Shown here piece by piece: positions 2,774-26,794 of a stretch of DNA of 64,000 nt. The DNA comes from Limnobacter sp. SAORIC-580 (lineage in GTDB: Bacteria; Pseudomonadota; Gammaproteobacteria; Burkholderiales; Burkholderiaceae_B): the NCBI RefSeq assembly GCF_013004065.1, contig NZ_CP053084.1:3038001-3102000 (forward strand). The letters are read 5' to 3'. The notes beneath the pieces were generated by a model. The model was not told where the DNA came from, did no database searches, and saw only the letters and a list, made by a program, of their open reading frames with translations. Position 1 is the first letter of the stretch. Each line of letters starts with the position of its first letter. The translations under genes were made by a program, and so were the position numbers.

Positions 2774-5700
2774 TATGGTTTAACTCCAATCGTATTTGCC
2801 GAATAGCCGCCGATGGGGAACTGATCCACAACTATCTCTGGCATGCCTCCCTTTGTATATCCGCCCCATTTAAATAATTCATTAGCTCCACGCTCAAAAC
2901 CAGACGGAAACCTAGCGTTATGCAAAAGAGGATTGTGAACATCAACTCGCATAAGTTCTTCATTCCAAGCATTTTCGGGGATACTTAGTTCCTTTTTAAT
3001 AAAATCCAAGCTTCCATTGGCTTTACCTAATAACTTATCCATTGCCGATTTAGTAGTTATAAATTGACCTGTAGGATCTCCGGCCATAGGTTTGCCTGCT
3101 ACGAATCGTTCATAAGCACTTTTGGGGATCAAATAGGAACCTCCACCTCTGAAGGTTTCCAAGTGTGAAACAACACCAACTCTCTTGTCTGACAACCAAG
3201 GGCTTGTTCTAGAATCTCCAGAGAATTCAGACTCATTTCCTTCCTTACAACTCAACCCCCACGGATCCACCCATGTCATGGGGTTCGGTGCGTACTGGTA
3301 CGCATTCATTCCACCCAGCAAACCAATGGGGTCTTGCGTGGTGAACTGCCCGCTGTTGGGGTCGTAGTAGCGGTGCCTGTTGTAGTGTAGCCCCGTTTCT
3401 TCGTCGTAATACTGACCTTGAAACCGCAGTGGGTTATCCACCTCGTTCACATGCGCAAGGGCCAGCGCACCGTAGGTTTTGAAGGTGCTGGACCACACAA
3501 CTTCGGCTTTTGCGTTGGTAATTTCTCGCGGGGTGCCGATGTGGTCGGTGTGGTAGTGGTACACATGCCCGTGTTGCACCAAGGCCAGCGGTTTGAAGCT
3601 GAAAGGTTCAAACAAATAAGAGCGGCTCGGTTTGGTACTGCCATCACTGCTGGTGTTGCTCACACCCTCATTGATTTCACTCAGCAGCACATCACCATTC
3701 CAGTAAAACGTAGTAGTGCTGATGGTGCTTTGCTGTGCACCGGGTTCGGTGGTTTTACTAATCCGCCTGCCCAGTGCGTCGTAGGCGTAGCGGGTAATAA
3801 CCCCCGCCACGTTCACTTCAACAAGCTGGTTTTGGGCGTTGTAGCGGTAGCGCGTTACCTGCCCTTGGCGTGGGCCGCGCTCAACAATTTCTTCTACGCG
3901 GTTGCCGCGATCGTCGTAATTAAAGCGCCTGTTGCCTTGGCGCTTTAACCTGTTGCCCGGGGTTTGTTGTGGCCTGCGGGCATTGGGGCTAGCAGGCTCT
4001 GGCAAGGCACGGCTTGCTTGTGCATCGGTGGCCTCTTGCCCCTCCAGCGCCTCAAGCAAATTGCTTGCGGGGTCGAATAAAAATGCTTCCGGTGTGGGGC
4101 CTTCCACCACGCGCAAGCGGTCCAGCAGATCGTAGTGGTAAAGGCTGGTGCCATGGCCTTGGTCGTCAATGCGTACCAGTTGGTTGCTCTGGTTGTAGCA
4201 GTAGCGCCGGCGGGAAACGGTGGGGGAAAGTTCATCCCTTCGTTCGGTTTTAGAACCGTTTGCTCTGCGATTTACCTGCCCCACCAGCCTGCCCTGTGGG
4301 TCGTACAGGCTTTGGGTGTGAACCTGGTTGCCCAGCTTGCGCACCACTTCACGGCCCAGGGTGTCGCGCTCGAACTGCGCCAGTAGTTCACCGTTGAAGT
4401 TAATTTCGCTGAGCAAACCCAAGGCGTTGTACTGGTAGGCCAAAGCACCCGAAGGTAGCCCACCACCCATTGCGCCCCAGCTGGTTTGCTTGAGCCAGCC
4501 TGCCGGGTTGTATTGGTGATCAATTCGATGCTGGTCTTGACGCTCGGCCAGTACGCGGCCTTCGGCATCTACCTCCCATTGCAGGGTGCGGTGCGCGTTG
4601 CTGGCTTGAACCAACTGGCCTTGCGGGTTGTAAGCAAAGGTGGCTTCTTCACCATCGCTTTGCCGGGCTTTCAACAATCGGCCCAAGGCATCGCGCTTGT
4701 AGCGTGAGTAGGCCAGTGGCTGCTTGGGTATTTGATCCAGACACAGCCCGTTTGCGGCACCGTGTAACACGCCCCATTCCTGCTTTTCAAGCAGGTGGCC
4801 CACTGCGTTGTACTGGTAGGTTTGCACCCGGCCATCGAAGCCGCTTTCTTTGGTTAAGCGTTCGGCAAGGTCGTATTCAAAGTGGCAGCTTTGACCGTTT
4901 TCGTTTTGCAGTTCGATCAAATTGCGTTCGCTGTCGTAGCGGTAGCGAAGGGTAAAACCTTGTGCATCAATGCGTGCGGTGGGCTGGCTTAATTTGTCGG
5001 CATATTCGTAAACCGCGCTGCGGCCGGTGGGGTCGGTAATACGTTCAAGCTGGCCCAGTGGGCCGTAGCTGTATTCGGTGCTTAGGCCCTCGTGGTTGGT
5101 GGCGCGGGTGCATCGACCCAGTAAGTCGTAGGCGTAATAGGCACTGCGCCCCAGCGGGTTGCTTATGCCTGCCAGCCGCCCCCAGGCGTCGAATTGGTAA
5201 GTGTTGCTTTGCCCCAGTGCATTGGTTTGCGCTTGCAGCTGGCCTTGCGCGTTGTACAACATGCGCGTGCTTTGGCCCAAGGGGTTTGTTACTTCACACA
5301 ACAAACCCAGGTGGTTGTAACGGTAGCGAGTGGTGGCACCTGTGGCATCGGTGTGGCTGGCCAGCAAACCTTCGGCTGTGTAAGTGTTGCTGCGCACATG
5401 GCCTTCAGCATTGATGTGCTTTAACACCTGCCCCTGTGCGTTGACTTCAAACCTGTGCAGCTGCCCAAGCTTGTTGGTGTACGCCACCAAATGGCCTTGG
5501 CTGTTGTACTGAAACTGCTCTCGGTGGCCCAGCGCATCAATGCGTTCCAACACTTGCCCATTGCTGTTGTAGGTGGTGCGTGTAACAGCGCCTTCAGGGC
5601 CCTTTTCAAGCACGGGTAGGCCTTGGGCATTGAACTGGTATTCAGTGCGTGCACCGCGGCTATCCATGGCAACGTTGGTAGCCGTGCCGTGAATATCCCA

Positions 5701-7800
5701 TTCAAACCGGTAGTGGTAGGTGGGTTGACCACCCACAGGGTCGCCCCACTGGCGCACGCAGCGGGAGTGTTCGCCCGCCTGCTCCCATTCAAAGTAAATG
5801 TTGTAACCGCTTTTTAGCGTGCGCTGAACCAGCACATTGCGTTTGTTGTAGGCGTATTGTTCTTCAAAGCCCGCAGCATCGCTTACGGCCACAAGCTGGC
5901 CCTGTGCGTTGTAGCGGTATTGCACCAGTATCAGTTGATTCAAACCCAATTGGTTTTGTTCAAGGGCGGTGTCGGTTTCGTCTGCTGAACAACCTTTGGC
6001 CAGTTGGGCAATTTGTGCAAGCAAGCCTTGTTCGTTGTAACCCAGTACCCAACTGCTTTGGCTGCTGTAGAGGTGGGTGGGAACGCCGTGCGTGTAGTCG
6101 ATAGCAAGTGCATTGCCAAAGGCGTCTTCAATGCGAACCAGCGAGAAGCGCTGTGTTTCGTTTTGCGTGGGTTCGCTGCCCTGCGCCAATTCAAGATGTT
6201 CAAAGTGCCAGGCCAAGCCCAACCCGTTGCTGGCTTGCAGACGGTAGGCTGTTTCTGCGGTGCGCGTCAGGGTTAAAAATTCACTGGTGTTGGTGCAGCG
6301 CTGGCCTACCTTCAAGGGCTTGAAGTAAACCGTGCGGCCTTCCTCGTCGATGTAGTTCAGGCTGCTTTCCAGTGCACCCGCCTGGGCTAGCAGGTGCTGG
6401 CTTAAGGGGTGCGCCCAACCGGCCCCAAGCCCTGCATTGAATCCTTGTTCTGCAAGGCTGCTGCGGTAAGTGCGCTGCCAGTTCAAGCCCACCAGGCCGG
6501 GCATTGAGCAATCGAGCAATTGCAGCAGTTCTTCACCGTTGATCATGCTGATGGGTTCACCGGCTGTTTTGGTGTCGGCCACTTTGGGTGTGTTTGCACC
6601 TTGTGTATTGCTCGCTGCCGGCTTGCCGGGCTCAGCAGGCTTTGCCGCTGCGGTGGTGGTGGTGCTGTTTTTTGAAGATCGGTTGCCAGAGGGCGCACCA
6701 TCGATTGAACGCAGTTTGGAGGCCTGTGCCTTTTCAAGCGCCTTGGCGTAATTGGCCAGGTGTCTAATTGCAGCCTGGGTAAATGGGCCCACTTTGCTGG
6801 CACCGTTTGCAACCCTGGCACCCACTCGCGCTGCGCCCACGGCAAGGCTTCCGCCGAATGTGGCCAGTGCCAGCAGCACTTCAATGCCTATGGCCACCAC
6901 CACCGTGGCTGCATTACGCAAGCGCCGCAGGTGGGGTACGCTTTCAGAATATCCGTCCAGAAATTCAAACAGGCCTGTGCGCAACAGGCGATCTGATCCA
7001 ATCAGGTTGAACAGGCGCATGCCTTCCTTCAAGGCCGCGATCATTTCTTGCGCGGTGTTGTAGGCCGCCATGCCCGCACCCACCAGCATTTGCTGAATTT
7101 GCGCAAAGTTGGAATTGATCAGCGTCTCGAACCCAGCGCAGGTGGCCTTTACTGCATTCACAGTGAACTCAACACTGATCTTGATCAGGCTCCACAAACC
7201 TTCGATAAAGCCCATGGCTGCAGCGCCAGCGCCCTGCCCAACGGCTTTGCCTTCTTCCCACAGTTCATGAATGCGGTGTTTCACCTTGAACTCAAGGTTT
7301 TGTGCATCGTGTTCGCGCCAGCGGGCCAGCAAAATAGTGGCCATTTCAACCAGTGCTTTTCCGCGTTCGTATTCCGTGCTGCCAGCTTGGTGTGCAAGCA
7401 GTTTGGTTTCACTGGCCCAGTAAATGCTGTTGGGGTTGAGCAGGTCTTTTTGCGGGTTGGCTGTCAGCGGTATTTTTATCACCAGCAAATCGCCAGTGAA
7501 TGCGGCTGTGCGTTGCCTTTCGCTGCGGCCCACGAAAAAACCATCGGCATACATATCGCCCTGCACCAGGCCAAAGTGGGTAAGCACTTTGCAATCGACG
7601 GTGTCGCCGGTGCGCGTGCGCGGAAACCCATGCAGCATCAGTTCATCGAGTTCGGTGTCGTTGATCGACTCTCTGTGCAGCGCCAACCAGGGTGACAGTT
7701 CGGTGCGTTTGTCGAAAAACGCCCAATAGTTGCCGCGAAAACGCAGCCCCAAACCAGACTTTACCGATTGACCAAAAACGGGAAGTTGAACGAAATCCAT
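2773..7800 (-). CDS. Rhs polymorphic toxin
   Basis: A 1675-residue Rhs/YD-repeat protein of the kind used in contact-dependent competition, often loaded on type VI secretion. Residues 1-290 are a family-specific N-terminal region. Residues 294-322 are hydrophobic (AATVVVAIGIEVLLALATFGG), as in Rhs effectors with prePAAR/TM regions, but I see no PAAR domain. Residues about 414-448 (GEPISMINGEELL...NWQRTYRSS) match the entry segment before the beta-cage. YD repeats such as YRYNAQGQL and YEYADKL fill residues 600-1450. The core closes at about 1490-1516 (DPIGLLGGMNAYQ...DPWGL). The last 159 residues are a variable tip ending in FPIGGYSANTIGVKP, with no family I can name. No secretion or VgrG gene is in the window. 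Confidence 0.92.
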   Translation of the reverse strand: MDFVQLPVFGQSVKSGLGLRFRGNYWAFFDKRTELSPWLALHRESINDTELDELMLHGFPRTRTGDTVDCKVLTHFGLVQGDMYADGFFVGRSERQRTAAFTGDLLVIKIPLTANPQKDLLNPNSIYWASETKLLAHQAGSTEYERGKALVEMATILLARWREHDAQNLEFKVKHRIHELWEEGKAVGQGAGAAAMGFIEGLWSLIKISVEFTVNAVKATCAGFETLINSNFAQIQQMLVGAGMAAYNTAQEMIAALKEGMRLFNLIGSDRLLRTGLFEFLDGYSESVPHLRRLRNAATVVVAIGIEVLLALATFGGSLAVGAARVGARVANGASKVGPFTQAAIRHLANYAKALEKAQASKLRSIDGAPSGNRSSKNSTTTTAAAKPAEPGKPAASNTQGANTPKVADTKTAGEPISMINGEELLQLLDCSMPGLVGLNWQRTYRSSLAEQGFNAGLGAGWAHPLSQHLLAQAGALESSLNYIDEEGRTVYFKPLKVGQRCTNTSEFLTLTRTAETAYRLQASNGLGLAWHFEHLELAQGSEPTQNETQRFSLVRIEDAFGNALAIDYTHGVPTHLYSSQSSWVLGYNEQGLLAQIAQLAKGCSADETDTALEQNQLGLNQLILVQYRYNAQGQLVAVSDAAGFEEQYAYNKRNVLVQRTLKSGYNIYFEWEQAGEHSRCVRQWGDPVGGQPTYHYRFEWDIHGTATNVAMDSRGARTEYQFNAQGLPVLEKGPEGAVTRTTYNSNGQVLERIDALGHREQFQYNSQGHLVAYTNKLGQLHRFEVNAQGQVLKHINAEGHVRSNTYTAEGLLASHTDATGATTRYRYNHLGLLCEVTNPLGQSTRMLYNAQGQLQAQTNALGQSNTYQFDAWGRLAGISNPLGRSAYYAYDLLGRCTRATNHEGLSTEYSYGPLGQLERITDPTGRSAVYEYADKLSQPTARIDAQGFTLRYRYDSERNLIELQNENGQSCHFEYDLAERLTKESGFDGRVQTYQYNAVGHLLEKQEWGVLHGAANGLCLDQIPKQPLAYSRYKRDALGRLLKARQSDGEEATFAYNPQGQLVQASNAHRTLQWEVDAEGRVLAERQDQHRIDHQYNPAGWLKQTSWGAMGGGLPSGALAYQYNALGLLSEINFNGELLAQFERDTLGREVVRKLGNQVHTQSLYDPQGRLVGQVNRRANGSKTERRDELSPTVSRRRYCYNQSNQLVRIDDQGHGTSLYHYDLLDRLRVVEGPTPEAFLFDPASNLLEALEGQEATDAQASRALPEPASPNARRPQQTPGNRLKRQGNRRFNYDDRGNRVEEIVERGPRQGQVTRYRYNAQNQLVEVNVAGVITRYAYDALGRRISKTTEPGAQQSTISTTTFYWNGDVLLSEINEGVSNTSSDGSTKPSRSYLFEPFSFKPLALVQHGHVYHYHTDHIGTPREITNAKAEVVWSSTFKTYGALALAHVNEVDNPLRFQGQYYDEETGLHYNRHRYYDPNSGQFTTQDPIGLLGGMNAYQYAPNPMTWVDPWGLSCKEGNESEFSGDSRTSPWLSDKRVGVVSHLETFRGGGSYLIPKSAYERFVAGKPMAGDPTGQFITTKSAMDKLLGKANGSLDFIKKELSIPENAWNEELMRVDVHNPLLHNARFPSGFERGANELFKWGGYTKGGMPEIVVDQFPIGGYSANTIGVKP
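3252..3973. repeat. Direct repeat of Rhs core 3' end, copy 2 (inside rhs)
   Basis: This is the counterpart of 1752-2452, located within the full-length rhs gene. It encodes the end of the YD-repeat cage up to the DPWGL boundary, after which the two toxin tips diverge completely. Recombination between the copies would delete about 1.5 kb (the current tip and its immunity gene) and fuse the second tip to the core. Confidence 0.9.
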
Positions 7801-20460: not shown

Positions 20461-20757
20461 ATGTCACACACAGACGATGAGAAATTAAAAGCAAGAAGGG
20501 CCATGCTGGCCAAAGTGGGTTTGGCCGTGGGTGCGTTGTATGCCGCGCCTGCCATGGTGGGCTTGGCCACGGCACAGGCGGGTAGCCGTTCCAGGCCCAG
20601 CCGAAAGTCGCGCCCATCCCGGTATGACCATTACCACACACGCTATGGCCGGGGCTACCGTTTTTCCCGGCCCTCACGCCCAAGCAGATATTCACGATAT
20701 TCCCGCTACTCGCGTTATTCCCGGGTAAGCCGCCCCTGGATTTATATTCGCTTCTAG
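20461..20757 (+). CDS. Tyr/Ser/Arg-repeat small protein with Tat-like leader (candidate modified-peptide precursor)
   Basis: A 98-residue protein. Residues 1-40 form a charged, RR-containing head (DDEKLKARRAMLAK) followed by a hydrophobic run with a YAAPAMVGLATAQA end. This looks like a Tat-type signal or leader, though it lacks the classical SRRxFLK. The remainder has no Cys and consists of SRPSR units, a Tyr/His/Gly patch (YDHYHTRYGRGYRF) and four tandem SRY triplets, ending in VSRPWIYIRF. I chose the ATG at 20461 because GGGGAAG lies 5 bases upstream; the frame also opens earlier at 20416. The stop is 3 bases before the HprK-PqqD fusion gene, whose product would be expected to bind it. Substrate status is inferred. 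Confidence 0.75.
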   Translation: MSHTDDEKLKARRAMLAKVGLAVGALYAAPAMVGLATAQAGSRSRPSRKSRPSRYDHYHTRYGRGYRFSRPSRPSRYSRYSRYSRYSRVSRPWIYIRF

Positions 20758-20760
20758 ACA

Positions 20761-21999
20761 ATGAACGCAGTACCACAACAAAGCCCCGCCTGCCTGTTGC
20801 TGAGGTTCGAAGGCACGGCAGGTGAAGTGTGCGTGCCCAACGAGCCAGCATTGCTCCAGGGCCTCACACAGCTTGTTCCAAGCTGGAAATACACCTGCAC
20901 ACCAACACATGGCAAAGCCTGTGACATGCCACACAACTGCATTACGAGGATTAACAACAGCCAGAACACCCCCTACACTTTTGACATTGAATCTGTTTAT
21001 CTGGACGAGCCATTGCTTGGCTTGCCCGCCGCCAGTGCACTGTGCGCACTGCTGGCCGATGTGCTTGAAACCCACATTGAGGAAAGTCCAAACCCGATTG
21101 CCCTGCATGCCGGGGCTTTTGCAATCGGGGGTCGGCTTATTGCGGTTACAGGCCCGCGACGGGCAGGCAAAAGCACGCTGATTGCAAGACTTTGCGCCGA
21201 ACCAGACCTGCAAATTTTCTGTGACGATGTATTGCCCATCAGCCCTCAGGGGGAGGGTGTGGCGCTGGGTGTAGCACCACGTTTGCGCCTGCCCCTGCCC
21301 GCCAAGGCGAGCATGCATTTCAAGCAGTTTGCCAGGCAACACATGGGGCCACACGACAGCCGCTACGGTTACCTGTGTGCCAGCAACGTGGCACTGCACG
21401 GCGTGCGCCTGCCGCTTGGCGCAATCGTGGTACTGGACCGGCAAACCGACACCCCGGCATGCCTTCACACCGTGAACGAAGACGATGCCCTGTTTTACAC
21501 ACTTGAACAGAATATGGGGCAGTTCAACTCGCCCGGCGAAGCCTTGGCAACAACGCAAGCACTTCTGGGCAAAATTACTTGCGTTCGACTGGTGTACGGC
21601 AACCTGGAGGAAGCCGTGCAACTGCTTCGAAAAGCTTTTGATGGCAAAGAGGCCATTAATCCTGATCTTCAGGTGAAGCCTGCACAGGGTTGGGTGCCGC
21701 CAACCCCCGAGACCCATACGCTTGCAGACACGGGCCGCGTATTCAAACGAGCACCTACCGCAGCCTTGCGCCGCATCGGTCAGTCCGCCTTCCTATGGCA
21801 AGCTGGCGAACACACCCTTTGGCGCCTGAACACCGAGGGGCAAGCCGTGTGGGCGCTGCTTGAAATGGCGGGCAACGCCAGGGAGCTGGCCGAAGCATTG
21901 GCCGAGGTATTTGTAGAAGTGCCACAAAAACAACTTGAGCACGATGTCCTGAAGATGCTTGGCAAAATGTGGGCTGAAGGTTTTTTGATCGAGCAATAA
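20761..21999 (+). CDS. HPr-kinase-like P-loop protein fused to a PqqD-type domain
   Basis: A 412-residue protein. The central part (about residues 70-290) resembles HprK-related kinases: it contains HAGAFAIGGRLIAVTG and the Walker A GPRRAGKST (residues 131-139), then an Asp pair in FCDDVLPI. Residues about 328-412 form a PqqD-like domain (IGQSAFLWQAG, TLWRLNTEGQAVWALLEMAG, ... LKMLGKMWAEGFLI), the fold that grips leader peptides in PQQ and other RiPP pathways. A kinase fused to a peptide-binding domain, coupled to a small leader-bearing protein, suggests phosphorylation or other processing of that peptide. No radical-SAM or cyclase partner is nearby. There is no clear ribosome binding site, so translation is probably coupled to the preceding gene. 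Confidence 0.82.
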   Translation: MNAVPQQSPACLLLRFEGTAGEVCVPNEPALLQGLTQLVPSWKYTCTPTHGKACDMPHNCITRINNSQNTPYTFDIESVYLDEPLLGLPAASALCALLADVLETHIEESPNPIALHAGAFAIGGRLIAVTGPRRAGKSTLIARLCAEPDLQIFCDDVLPISPQGEGVALGVAPRLRLPLPAKASMHFKQFARQHMGPHDSRYGYLCASNVALHGVRLPLGAIVVLDRQTDTPACLHTVNEDDALFYTLEQNMGQFNSPGEALATTQALLGKITCVRLVYGNLEEAVQLLRKAFDGKEAINPDLQVKPAQGWVPPTPETHTLADTGRVFKRAPTAALRRIGQSAFLWQAGEHTLWRLNTEGQAVWALLEMAGNARELAEALAEVFVEVPQKQLEHDVLKMLGKMWAEGFLIEQ

Positions 22000-22055: not shown

Positions 22056-22074
22056 GATAATGATTCGCATTATT
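22056..22074. promoter_or_regulatory. Fur box upstream of the TonB receptor gene
   Basis: GATAATGATTCGCATTATT matches 15 of 19 positions of the classical Fur consensus GATAATGATAATCATTATC. It lies about 55 bases before the receptor ATG, in AT-rich promoter-like DNA, and predicts iron repression of the receptor. Confidence 0.85.
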
Positions 22075-22129
22075 GTTACTATTAATAAATCTTTATTCCG
22101 ATCACTCAAACATCCCCCAGAACCTTGCC

Positions 22130-24280
22130 ATGCAAAAACCCCAGCAACCCTATGCCCTGTTACACCTACTCATCGTCGCTGCCCTCAGTGGGCACACAGC
22201 TGCCTTCGCCAACACAACTTCCCCGGCCGGACAAACATTGCCCGAAGTGAAAGTGGTAGAACAAACCCCAGCCCAGGAAAATCCTGCCGGCCCTTTTGAG
22301 GGCTATGCTGCCAGCCGCAGTGCCACTGCAACAAAAACCAATACAGCAATCGCTGAGACAGCCCAAGCCATTTCAGTGATTGGTCGCGATCAACTCGAAG
22401 ATCAAAACGCAAACGATTTGGGCCAGGCATTGCGCTACACGCCCGGTATTCAGGGCGAGCCATTTGGAGTGGAACCCCGTTTCACCTTTTTCAGAATTCG
22501 TGGCTTTGATGCGTCCACAACAGGGCTGTTTCGCGATGGCCTTAAACTCAGCAATCCCGGGTTTTCAATCAGCTATGGCCTGGAGCCCTTTGGTGCTGAG
22601 CGAATTGAAGTGCTACGCGGCCCCTCCTCCGTGCTGTACGGGCAGGCCAGCCCTGGCGGTTTGGTTAATTTTGTGACGCGCCGGCCTAGCCAGGAAACAC
22701 ACCGTGAATTTGGCATTGAAGTGGGCAGCTTTGACAGAAAACAAGCCACTTTGGACATTGGCGGTGCGCTTGAAAGCAATGATGAATTCAGCTATCGCCT
22801 GACCGGTTTATTGCGAAACAGCGACACACAGGTGGATTTTGTGCACGACGACAGAATTTACATTGCGCCAGCGATCACCTGGAAACCCAATTCTGACACC
22901 AGCTTAACGCTACTCACCCACTACCAGAAAGACGACACCATTTCTTCACAGGCCTTGCCTGCTGCAGGTACGCTTCTGCCCAATCCAAACGGACCAATTC
23001 CACGCAACCGCTTTTCGGGCGAACCCGGTGTGGACAAATACGAAAGGGAGGAATTTTCTGTTACCTCGCTTTTGGAACACAAGCTCAACGACTCCGTCAC
23101 ACTTCGACAGAACACGCGTTACTACCAAACCGATCTGAACGATGTGGTGGTGTTCAGCAACTCACTTCAGGCTGACCAACGCACAGTGGACCGTGCTTAC
23201 TTCAGCAGCTTTGGCAATTTGGCTTCCCTGACCCTGGACAATCAGTTGGAATACCGCTTTTCCCTGGGGGCTGCAAAGCACACCTTGCTGAGCGGTGTCG
23301 ATTTCCAGAATGTCGAGCTTGATTCCATACAAGCCTTTGGCGCAGCCCCTTCGCTTGACATCTACAACCCAGTCTACGGATCGCCGGTCAATATTCCCGC
23401 GCCGTTCAGAAATGACAGCACTGAGCAGCAACAGTTGGGTTTTTACCTGCAAGACGAAATTCGCTACGAGCAATGGATAGCCACCCTGGCGGGCCGCTAT
23501 GACGAAGCAAAAAACAAGGTTAACGATCTACTAATGAATAGGCAAAGCAGGCAAGACGACAGCGCCACAACCGGGCGCGCAAGCTTGATGTACCAATTCG
23601 TCAACGGTGTGTCGCCATACCTTAGTTACACCGAGTCTTTCCTGCCGGCTTTGGGCACCGATGCGAACGGGCGGAATTTTGATCCCGAAACCGGTCAGCA
23701 ATTCGAGGTGGGGGTCAAGTTTCAACCCAACGCTGCCAGCCAGTTCAATGTGGCCTTGTTCGACTTGACTCGCGAAAACTTCCTGACCACAAACCCAAAC
23801 ACATTTGCTCAAGAGCAAACGGGCGAAGCCCGATCCAAGGGCATTGAACTTGAGGCACTGACGGCAATTACCGACCAACTCAACCTGATCGCGAGCTACA
23901 CCTACACCGACGTTGAAATTACGCGCTCAACCGACCCAGCGGAATTGAATCGCCGCCCGGTTCAAACACCAGAGCATTTGGCCTCATTGTGGGCTGATTA
24001 CACCTTGCGTGGCGATGTGCTGAATGGCGTCGGTATTGGCCTGGGCGCACGCTACCTGGGTTCTACCTTTGCAGACGCCAGCAATACCTTGAAGGTACCC
24101 AATGCAACAGTGTTTGATGCAAGCATTCACTATGACTGGAAACAGGCCCGTTTTTCCCTGAATATTCAAAACCTGTTCGACCGCGAGTACGAACCCAGCG
24201 CCTACATTCGCGGGGGAACGCCGTTCACGGTTGCAGCACAAGAGCGGACCGTTCAGGCGCAAGTCAGTTATCGCTGGTGA
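22130..24280 (+). CDS. TonB-dependent ferric-siderophore receptor
   Basis: A 716-residue outer-membrane receptor. A signal peptide (MQKPQQPYALLHLL ... HTAAFA) is followed by a TonB-box-like LPEVKVVE. The plug domain has QAISVIGRDQLEDQ, TPGIQGEP, FFRIRGFD and VLRGPSSVLYGQASPGGLVNFVTRRP. A long beta-barrel follows, closing with the NLFDREYEPSAY signature and a terminal aromatic (SYRW). This is the FhuA/FpvA-like siderophore receptor class. It takes up an iron chelate across the outer membrane, energised by TonB-ExbBD encoded elsewhere. The Fur box just upstream supports iron control. I start at the ATG at 22130; the frame extends 19 codons upstream through the promoter region. Confidence 0.95.
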   Translation: MQKPQQPYALLHLLIVAALSGHTAAFANTTSPAGQTLPEVKVVEQTPAQENPAGPFEGYAASRSATATKTNTAIAETAQAISVIGRDQLEDQNANDLGQALRYTPGIQGEPFGVEPRFTFFRIRGFDASTTGLFRDGLKLSNPGFSISYGLEPFGAERIEVLRGPSSVLYGQASPGGLVNFVTRRPSQETHREFGIEVGSFDRKQATLDIGGALESNDEFSYRLTGLLRNSDTQVDFVHDDRIYIAPAITWKPNSDTSLTLLTHYQKDDTISSQALPAAGTLLPNPNGPIPRNRFSGEPGVDKYEREEFSVTSLLEHKLNDSVTLRQNTRYYQTDLNDVVVFSNSLQADQRTVDRAYFSSFGNLASLTLDNQLEYRFSLGAAKHTLLSGVDFQNVELDSIQAFGAAPSLDIYNPVYGSPVNIPAPFRNDSTEQQQLGFYLQDEIRYEQWIATLAGRYDEAKNKVNDLLMNRQSRQDDSATTGRASLMYQFVNGVSPYLSYTESFLPALGTDANGRNFDPETGQQFEVGVKFQPNAASQFNVALFDLTRENFLTTNPNTFAQEQTGEARSKGIELEALTAITDQLNLIASYTYTDVEITRSTDPAELNRRPVQTPEHLASLWADYTLRGDVLNGVGIGLGARYLGSTFADASNTLKVPNATVFDASIHYDWKQARFSLNIQNLFDREYEPSAYIRGGTPFTVAAQERTVQAQVSYRW

Positions 24281-26068: not shown

Positions 26069-26794
26069 ATGAACGCAGTAAGCACGTCGATAGAACAACA
26101 GGCAAAAATCACCAAAATCAACGGCAGTGTGCAGTTGATTCGGGATGGTTTCTTCCTGCCCGCGCAAGCAGGCATGGTTCTATTGCCGGGCGACCGTGTT
26201 CTCAGCGATGCGGGCGGCAAGGCAGTCATTGAGTTCACTGGCGTGAAAGATGCGCTGATTATTGAGAATGGTGCAGCCGCCACCTTCAACCTGGAAGTGG
26301 TTGAAATGGACGAAGCACCGCAGTGGATCGCCACCGACCTGTATGGCCAAGGAGTGTATTTCGACGGCCAACAGGCTTCCGAGTACAACGCAGGCACTTC
26401 GGACAACCCGGACCTGTTCGGACTGTTTGGCACCACCAACGCCAATGGCGAGTCGACCGGCTACCCGGTGCTGGAAAGCCTGGTGTTTTTAGGTGCCACC
26501 GCAGCCATATACAGCGACAACGAAGACAACACAAACACCACTGAAACCACCAGCACCACCGAATCGGGCAACAACGACTCAGGCACCGGTGGCAACAACA
26601 ACCCGCCACCCGCCCCTGAACCGAATCCCAACCCGGAACCTGAAGAACCTGCTGCCAGCCCCCTGGACGCCGTACTTTCCCCGGTGACCGATGCACTGGA
26701 CGGTTTACTCTCCACCCTTGGTGCGCCCTCCCCTGTGGGCAGTTTGGCCGTACCTTTGCAAGCAAGCAGCAACAGCCCCGATTTGCCAAGTTAA
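26069..26794 (+). CDS. Retention-module-like protein with low-complexity tail
   Basis: A 241-residue protein without a signal peptide. Residues 10-90 (KITKINGSVQLIRDGFFLPAQ, VLLPGDRVLSDAGGKAVIEF) resemble the FecR-like N-terminal retention module of giant RTX adhesins such as LapA. The rest is Asn, Thr, Gly and Pro-rich low complexity (residues about 150-200) with a short hydrophobic patch near residue 145. A real adhesin would be thousands of residues long with a type I signal, so this is either a stand-alone module protein or a truncated relative. It follows the GST gene by 16 bases. Confidence 0.65.
   Translation: MNAVSTSIEQQAKITKINGSVQLIRDGFFLPAQAGMVLLPGDRVLSDAGGKAVIEFTGVKDALIIENGAAATFNLEVVEMDEAPQWIATDLYGQGVYFDGQQASEYNAGTSDNPDLFGLFGTTNANGESTGYPVLESLVFLGATAAIYSDNEDNTNTTETTSTTESGNNDSGTGGNNNPPPAPEPNPNPEPEEPAASPLDAVLSPVTDALDGLLSTLGAPSPVGSLAVPLQASSNSPDLPS

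Follow-up and report, generated by a model that had tools for sequence, protein, structure and literature searches.

A serine-repeat protein and an HprK-PqqD fusion as a probable two-gene phosphorylation and export system in Limnobacter

Background

In the lasso and LPP clusters, going by the available parts of the published accounts, HprK-like kinases and PqqD-type leader-binding domains (RREs) are separate proteins, and several genes are involved. The LPP system of the Bacillota (Nat Commun 2026, PMC13381572) combines an HprK-like kinase and a PqqD-type RRE with a linear precursor that has a constant YxxP leader and a variable C terminus. The available part of that paper demonstrates serine phosphorylation: LppK phosphorylates Ser3 of the RRE-bound linear peptide, placing several phosphates on one serine and not one on each of many. 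According to the same part, the pattern recognised by lasso RREs is [Y/W]xxPx[L/V/I/A/F/Y]; LPP leaders have YxxPxV, with Y and P both mattering in binding, and Asp70 of LppB hydrogen-bonds the leader Tyr; the structures 9x8z and 9x90 are given there as the LppB-leader and PbaB1-leader complexes. In the paeninodin-type lasso systems (PadeK, ThcoK and PsmK; PMC9266682, available part), an HprK-like kinase phosphorylates a precursor Ser and the RRE binds a [Y/W]xxP leader. The PqqD fold and a YxxP-type leader motif are also found in PqqD/PqqA of PQQ biosynthesis (PMC13381572, available part), and the HPr-rel-A system comprises a kinase (TIGR04352), a PqqD protein (TIGR04353) and NTP_transf_5. 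We found no paper on an HprK-PqqD fusion in the openly licensed PMC literature, covered mostly as abstract openings, and a term search for 'kinase' or 'HPr' gave no occurrence in the main texts of RRE-Finder (PMC7470986) and PMC12710340.

Here we describe a gene pair of Limnobacter sp. SAORIC-580, contained in a stretch of 64,000 nucleotides (the window), that we consider likely, from its sequence features, to be a two-gene system making a multiply phosphorylated, exported Ser-repeat protein. It shares with LPP the HprK-like kinase, the PqqD-type RRE and a linear precursor with a constant YxxP leader and a variable C terminus; it differs in that the RRE is fused to the kinase, the core is a Ser repeat array and the host belongs to the Pseudomonadota. 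Its leader is of the Tat type and has only the YxxPx[L/V/M] portion of the LPP pattern YxxPxVLxHQxIxFETxxS, the HQxIxFETxxS part being absent, and the two-gene unit contains no SpI peptidase, NTP transferase or MsbA-like transporter. Unlike the paeninodin-type systems, the pair has no macrolactam cyclase, B2 peptidase or lasso core—neither enzyme was found in the two-gene interval of L. alexandrii or among the nine window proteins scanned with NCBIfam and with Pfam—and its predicted target is not one C-terminal Ser. It is set apart from PqqD/PqqA by the lack of radical SAM or PQQ chemistry. The likeness to HPr-rel-A consists of weak kinase and PqqD profile similarity and of members (L072 and L074) with an RR-leader protein upstream; however, the window pair is fused, has no adjoining nucleotidyltransferase, and has a Ser-repeat core and a leader Tyr that is absent in L072 and L074. 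Both loci exceed the HPr-rel-A cut-off with their kinases (384 and 404 bits) and the PqqD_rel_X cut-off with their PqqD proteins, and both have an NTP_transf_5 gene; the two-gene system may be a reduced, fused cousin of HPr-rel-A. As far as its sequence goes, the pair seems to work like the LPP and paeninodin-type systems and yet to be a variant rather than a member, since it departs from the LPP and paeninodin gene content and from the rest of the LPP leader, and falls below the HPr-rel-A cut-off.

If so, one polypeptide and one substrate gene may suffice here, the substrate being constant in its three-residue Ser pitch and using its leader as a Tat signal as well. Such a pair would provide a minimal, heterologously testable system for RRE-guided phosphorylation, would tie RiPP-type leader recognition to protein export, and would explain genes annotated merely as 'PqqD family protein' (for example, in six plasmid records).

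Architecture of the gene pair

Both genes lie on the forward strand: a small ORF at 20461-20757, coding for a Cys-free, precursor-like protein of 98 residues, and, after a gap of 3 nucleotides, the fusion ORF at 20761-21999 (412 residues). These ORFs are as an earlier note on this DNA had described them, including the RR leader and the SRP/SRY repeats of the small protein. The Tat-like leader of the latter (residues 1-40, 20461-20580) has RR at residues 12-13, a hydrophobic stretch and A-x-A at residues 36-38 and 38-40. Inside the hydrophobic stretch lies YAAPAM (residues 27-32, 20539-20556), a putative RRE-binding motif of the YxxP type, a role suggested by the available part of PMC13381572. 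The SRP/SRY repeats occupy residues 41-98 (20581-20754), a tail predicted from its Ser composition and spacing to be the modified part. A promoter and terminator scan gave nothing useful above shuffled sequence.

The C-terminal domain of the fusion (about residues 330-411, 21748-21993) is, as had been proposed, a PqqD domain. Pfam PqqD (PF05402) matches residues 350-409 with E 2e-8 and 34.9 bits, over its cut-off of 23.4, and matches all 24 aligned members of the fusion family (E up to 0.01). A fusion-family profile built from 22 members finds as its top PDB matches leader-binding proteins of lasso and LPP systems: TbiB1 (1.3e-9), LppB 9x8z (1.6e-7), PbaB1 9x90 (7.6e-7) and TfuB1 (1.4e-5). The HPr-rel-A PqqD profile (TIGR04353) matches 4 of the 24 members, and weakly.

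The kinase portion is only a distant relative of HprK. The NCBIfam HprK-related kinase A profile (HprK_rel_A, TIGR04352) matches residues 108-290 with E 5.4e-5 and 22.4 bits, below its cut-off of 200, and is found in 23 of the 24 members at E up to 0.01. The Pfam HprK profile (Hpr_kinase_C, PF07475) gave no match in the window fusion at E up to 1 and none in the 24 members at E up to 0.01. Nevertheless, the motifs of HprK relatives claimed for this domain do align, though the whole-domain scores are weak. The 22-member profile reaches the PDB HprK 3tqf at E 0.0028 with the HprK-type hallmarks in register: a His ahead of the P-loop (His116, codon at 21106-21108), the Walker A motif GPRRAGKST at residues 131-139 (21151-21177), exactly where it had been placed, and the DD motif (Asp155-Asp156, 21223-21228). 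The same three elements align with the genome's own HprK, for which hhalign returns E 0.00098 and a probability of just 21.8%. His116, G136 K137 S138 and Asp155-Asp156 are invariant in 24 of 24 aligned members. Further PDB matches at E 0.05 and worse, namely midasin, transporters and guanylate kinases, look like chance or common P-loops. A search of the same genome shows a separate true HprK elsewhere and the genome's own pqqD at C1:908505-908690. The nearest named fusion is that of Limnobacter sp. CACIAM 66H1 (L079), with 77% in the best segment.

Two neighbors in the window deserve mention. Between the fusion and rpoH lies a gene for a FhuA/FoxA-like TonB siderophore receptor (22073-24280); a siderophore link of the pair through this receptor is weakened as a candidate because L. 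alexandrii carries the pair beside rpoH and the receptor is absent there. At 26069-26794 is a 241-residue orphan, without an adhesin body and without a Pfam match over the cut-off, which we take to resemble the N-terminal retention module of LapA-type adhesins.

Conservation and phyletic spread

Loci were collected by kinase-based searches alone, without using the small gene. The kinase was found in 4 of 151 genomes of the family sample. In the order sample (399 genomes), the only strong match was the window's own genome, 22 others scoring 28-41 bits, and the class sample (369 genomes) added six strong new matches, besides 23 weaker ones of 28-52 bits. In the phylum sample, 8 of 299 genomes matched at E up to 1e-15. 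Three of these (the window, G898 and G975) have fusions of the window kind and G913 has separate kinase and PqqD genes, while in G1094, G1080, G1052 and G928 the PqqD part comes first by our reading; of the two PqqD-first ORFs scanned among these four, L106 is over the Pfam PqqD cut-off and L108 slightly below it. The kinase searches further returned six plasmid records, three of which were opened, and 20 loci on genome contigs; a genome-contig search with the single window protein as query gave no relative.

Counting each organism once and requiring the kinase followed by PqqD, fused or adjacent, gives 31 loci (the window, L007, L008, L009, L066-L071, L076-L079, L082-L092, L095-L098, L104 and L105). 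L080 is counted with L007 and L081 with L008; plasmid loci H2, H3 and H6 and the weak matches of the order and class samples, which were partly examined, stand outside the count. As L088 and L091 end at a contig edge, 29 loci are testable. In 27 of them, the window included, a leader-bearing small gene is the next gene upstream on the same strand, and these 27 are spread over beta-, gamma- and alphaproteobacteria; the claim that the small protein is conserved beside the fusion is thus upheld. The two loci without it, L084 (a Yoonia MAG) and L105 (G913), both keep the RRE Asp discussed below. Two Neomegalonema kinases (L093 4944-5894 and L094 4947-5906) have neither a PqqD domain in the ORF nor a small gene. 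G693 encodes two small leader proteins about 3.5 kb apart, the second of which (L068 10067-10393) has a His/Ser tail resembling that of the first.

A leader profile built partly from the window ORF retrieves that ORF alone from the 3.3-Mb genome (E 1.5e-12, the next at 0.41). In the family sample, its matches are exactly the four fusion genomes, with none of the 147 fusion-free genomes giving a strong match (E < 1e-11); in the class sample, where up to 21 candidates per genome were scored, the strong matches are the seven fusion genomes, against 0 of 362 fusion-free ones at the same threshold. The positives are expected, since the profile was built from fusion loci, and the absences alone are informative. 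Three weak matches (E ~1e-4) also turned up in the class sample scored in this way; each is the Tat-type leader of a larger protein, namely a molybdopterin oxidoreductase, a phosphoesterase and an NHL-repeat protein that Pfam matches to TAT_signal.

Within the genus, the seven genomes listed comprise three with the pair and four without both genes. The interval that the small gene and the fusion occupy in L. alexandrii (L007) lies between flanks colinear on both sides with those of its congener G066 (82-88% identity), where two other, unrelated ORFs, encoded on the opposite strand, stand in their place. A tree rooted at its midpoint nests the four Limnobacter fusions in a group whose other members are Rhodobacterales and one alphaproteobacterial MAG (support 100/100 for all 15 members together; 97/95 for the subgroup of 14 that excludes Gemmobacter). 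This placement and the plasmid copies suggest horizontal transfer.

The serine-repeat tail

The earlier note had proposed the Ser/Tyr tail as the target; we find that Ser is the only residue common to the tails. It makes up at least 8% of 27 of 27 tails, with a minimum of 10.8%, and no other residue does so: the same level is reached by Arg in 21 tails, Gly in 14, Pro in 12, Tyr in 8, Ala in 7, Lys and His in 3 each, Asp and Glu in 2 each, Thr in 1 and Cys in 0, and by the remaining residues, counted separately, in at most 3 of 25 tails. Tyr as the modification target is ruled out by its reaching 8% in just those 8 of 27. The repeat units themselves vary (SRP, SRY, SEM/SEA, SVP, SNK/SGK and GSG).

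What is retained is the spacing. There are 226 Ser-Ser pairs at distance 3, against 87.4 in shuffled tails (sd 7.1, maximum 108 in 1000 shuffles), and 173 at distance 6, against 83.6, whereas distances 1, 2, 4, 5, 7 and 8 lie below the shuffle mean; the tails of close relatives (four Limnobacter, several Paracoccus) are not independent in these counts. Among distances 1-8, 3 ranks first in 18 of the 27 tails. The codons of serines three apart are identical in 54 of 226 cases, compared with 80.5 (sd 6.1) upon within-tail shuffling, and switch between AGY and TCN 73 times. Because such codons are identical less often than in the shuffle, the array appears to be kept at the protein level, with selection apparently holding Ser at a fixed pitch while the DNA varies. 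In the DNA of the window tail, TRF reports one nine-base array of 3.8 copies with 76% matches; this value and the excess of varied Ser codons rule out that the repeats arose by recent slippage of the DNA.

These features bear on the most serious competing explanation, namely, that the enzyme acts like LppK or ThcoK, placing one or several phosphates on one serine, with the tail serving as a disordered spacer or a surface tail. There is precedent for it in the available parts of the two papers: the phosphates added by LppK are all on core Ser3 and are abolished by S3A (PMC13381572), and the target of ThcoK and PadeK is the C-terminal Ser (PMC9266682). However, no single Ser position is constant in the 27 tails, while Ser content and the three-residue spacing are, even in the SEM, SVP, SNK and GSG types, and we regard this explanation as unlikely.

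The leader and its pairing with the RRE

The leaders of all 27 small proteins share a Tat-substrate layout, with RR, a hydrophobic stretch holding YxxP (25) or FxxP (2), and then an A/V/S-x-A site, and the genome encodes TatC. YxxPx[LVIAFYM] fits 25 of 27 leaders and the strict form, in which the sixth residue is not Met, 19 of 27, these counts describing leaders of fusion loci; YAAPAM of the window, with Met in sixth place, falls outside the strict lasso-type form. A control on other Tat-like leaders in the collected loci came to 21 ORFs, mostly of the fusion type or resembling those of HPr-rel-A, too few to give a rate for YxxP in ordinary Tat signals. An ordinary Tat leader, that of L123, carries FxxP. 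A generic Tat leader is insufficient as an account of the small protein, because the leader profile has no second match in the genome.

On the RRE side, Asp70 of LppB, the residue that contacts the leader Tyr in the LPP system, aligns with Asp395 of the fusion (codon at 21943-21945); with 9x8z numbered from the start Met, every residue that the paper names matches its letter. All 25 loci with a Tyr leader have Asp at the aligned position; Ser or Ala stands there in the two with a Phe leader (L097 and L098), which are relatives of each other and probably represent one event. PqqD rows were returned for 41 of 62 loci, so most Tyr-less relatives are unscored; three with Tyr-less leaders, L014, L027 and L026, have Gln, Ser and His, respectively. 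Among rows without an assigned leader, Asp also occurs in L025 and L029, as it does in the genome's true PqqD, and the others have E, E, H, N, T and A. The covariation of the leader Tyr with the Asp is consistent with an RRE that recognises the YxxP motif. The earlier proposal that one protein both recognises and phosphorylates the tail gains support as to a single enzyme, but the recognition element would be the YxxP leader and not the tail.

One could also suppose that the main task of the PqqD domain is Tat proofreading, as a chaperone masking the signal, and that the kinase domain is a nucleotide-driven switch, not a peptide kinase. The position of YxxP inside the Tat hydrophobic stretch is in keeping with this, as are the three weak leader matches outside fusion genomes, which are Tat-type leaders on larger proteins (E ~1e-4). 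It leaves unexplained, however, the constant Ser of the tails and the kept His, Walker A and DD motifs, and seems to us very unlikely.

Proposed mechanism

The reading that we favor, a two-gene system producing an exported protein with many phosphoserines, would operate as follows. The C-terminal RRE of the fusion would bind YxxPx[L/V/M] in the leader of the small protein, so that the disordered tail is tethered to the HprK-like kinase of the same fusion; the kinase would transfer phosphate to the serines of the S-x-x array. Because the same leader is a Tat signal, the product could be exported across the inner membrane after its modification in the cytoplasm, with a cut near the A-x-A site. 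The gene pair, its domains and catalytic motifs, the leader motif, the Ser array, the conservation and the Tyr/Asp covariation are directly visible in the sequences, and from these we infer the binding, the kinase activity, the number and place of the phosphates, the Tat export and the cleavage. As for the final role, a surface or metal/mineral-binding phosphoprotein would be our guess. Counting against the reading are the kinase score far below the HprK_rel_A cut-off, the 2 of 29 loci without the small gene and the multiple phosphorylation of one serine by LppK.

Alternatively, phosphorylation might be an intermediate, the phosphoserine being altered further by an enzyme encoded elsewhere, as with PsmN, which adds hexoses to phosphoserine (PMC9266682, available part). 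A nucleotidyltransferase (Pfam NTP_transf_5, over the cut-off) does follow the kinase in three relatives scanned, L072, L073 and L074; yet none is present in the two-gene interval of L. alexandrii or among the annotated neighbors in the three opened plasmid loci, which makes such an onward reaction highly improbable here. That a secreted low-complexity protein merely happens to sit beside an unrelated enzyme, as the 2 of 29 loci without the small gene and the 4 of 7 listed congeneric genomes without both genes might suggest, is scarcely credible given the 27/29 conservation, the lack of the leader where the fusion is absent, the Tyr/Asp covariation and the presence of the pair as a unit.

Multiple phosphorylation followed by export can also be taken further, into a version that we offer as possible but doubtful. 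In it, one protein would link the selection of its substrate, phosphorylation at many serines and the timing of export. As the RRE would grip YxxP within the Tat signal, that signal would stay hidden until the S-x-x array is phosphorylated; the product would then be an exported phosphoserine-repeat protein, a counterpart in design of SR-repeat/silaffin-like phosphoproteins, and the leader on alphaproteobacterial subtilases (below) would point to a general leader-coded phosphorylation-and-export route.

Alphaproteobacterial operons and related loci

In ten loci (L076-L078, L082, L083, L085-L087, L089 and L092), the pair is accompanied by a subtilase gene and two divergent genes, one of the sigma-70 family and the other without a Pfam match, which we read as an anti-sigma factor; the subtilase/sigma accompaniment was not found in L084, L090, L097 and L098. 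The statement that no radical-SAM, cyclase or protease gene accompanies the pair does not extend to these ten loci, which add a peptidase gene. Nine of the ten subtilases (S8) carry the same RR...YxxP leader (e.g., L076 2984-4252 and L077 2995-4332), followed in most by a Ser/Arg/Gly-rich stretch and in L089 by an Asp-rich one; the L092 subtilase is missing the leader and has a poly-Asp run near the N terminus. Because acidic runs replace the Ser-rich stretch, these two cases, the only ones, hint that negative charge is what matters.

Tat-like leaders without Tyr, of the type RRxLLK...APVVLTLxS, recur in the weak-match loci L011/L074, L014, L017, L019, L021, L026, L027, L032, L045, L046, L052, L055, L059 and L072; the proteins bearing them are possibly overlooked HPr-rel-A substrates. 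The PqqD-then-kinase ORFs L106, L107, L108 and L109 (G1094, G1080, G1052 and G928, respectively) belong to large genomes, and no leader gene of the fusion type was found in their short stretches, bar one weak out-of-frame match in L109. A reversed order is also seen in L073 of G740 (3993-6784), where PqqD precedes the kinase, a nucleotidyltransferase lies downstream, and a small leader protein combines the motif YTPPAV with SWKP-type repeats; the aligned RRE position is again Asp, and this locus possibly represents the same design arrived at separately.
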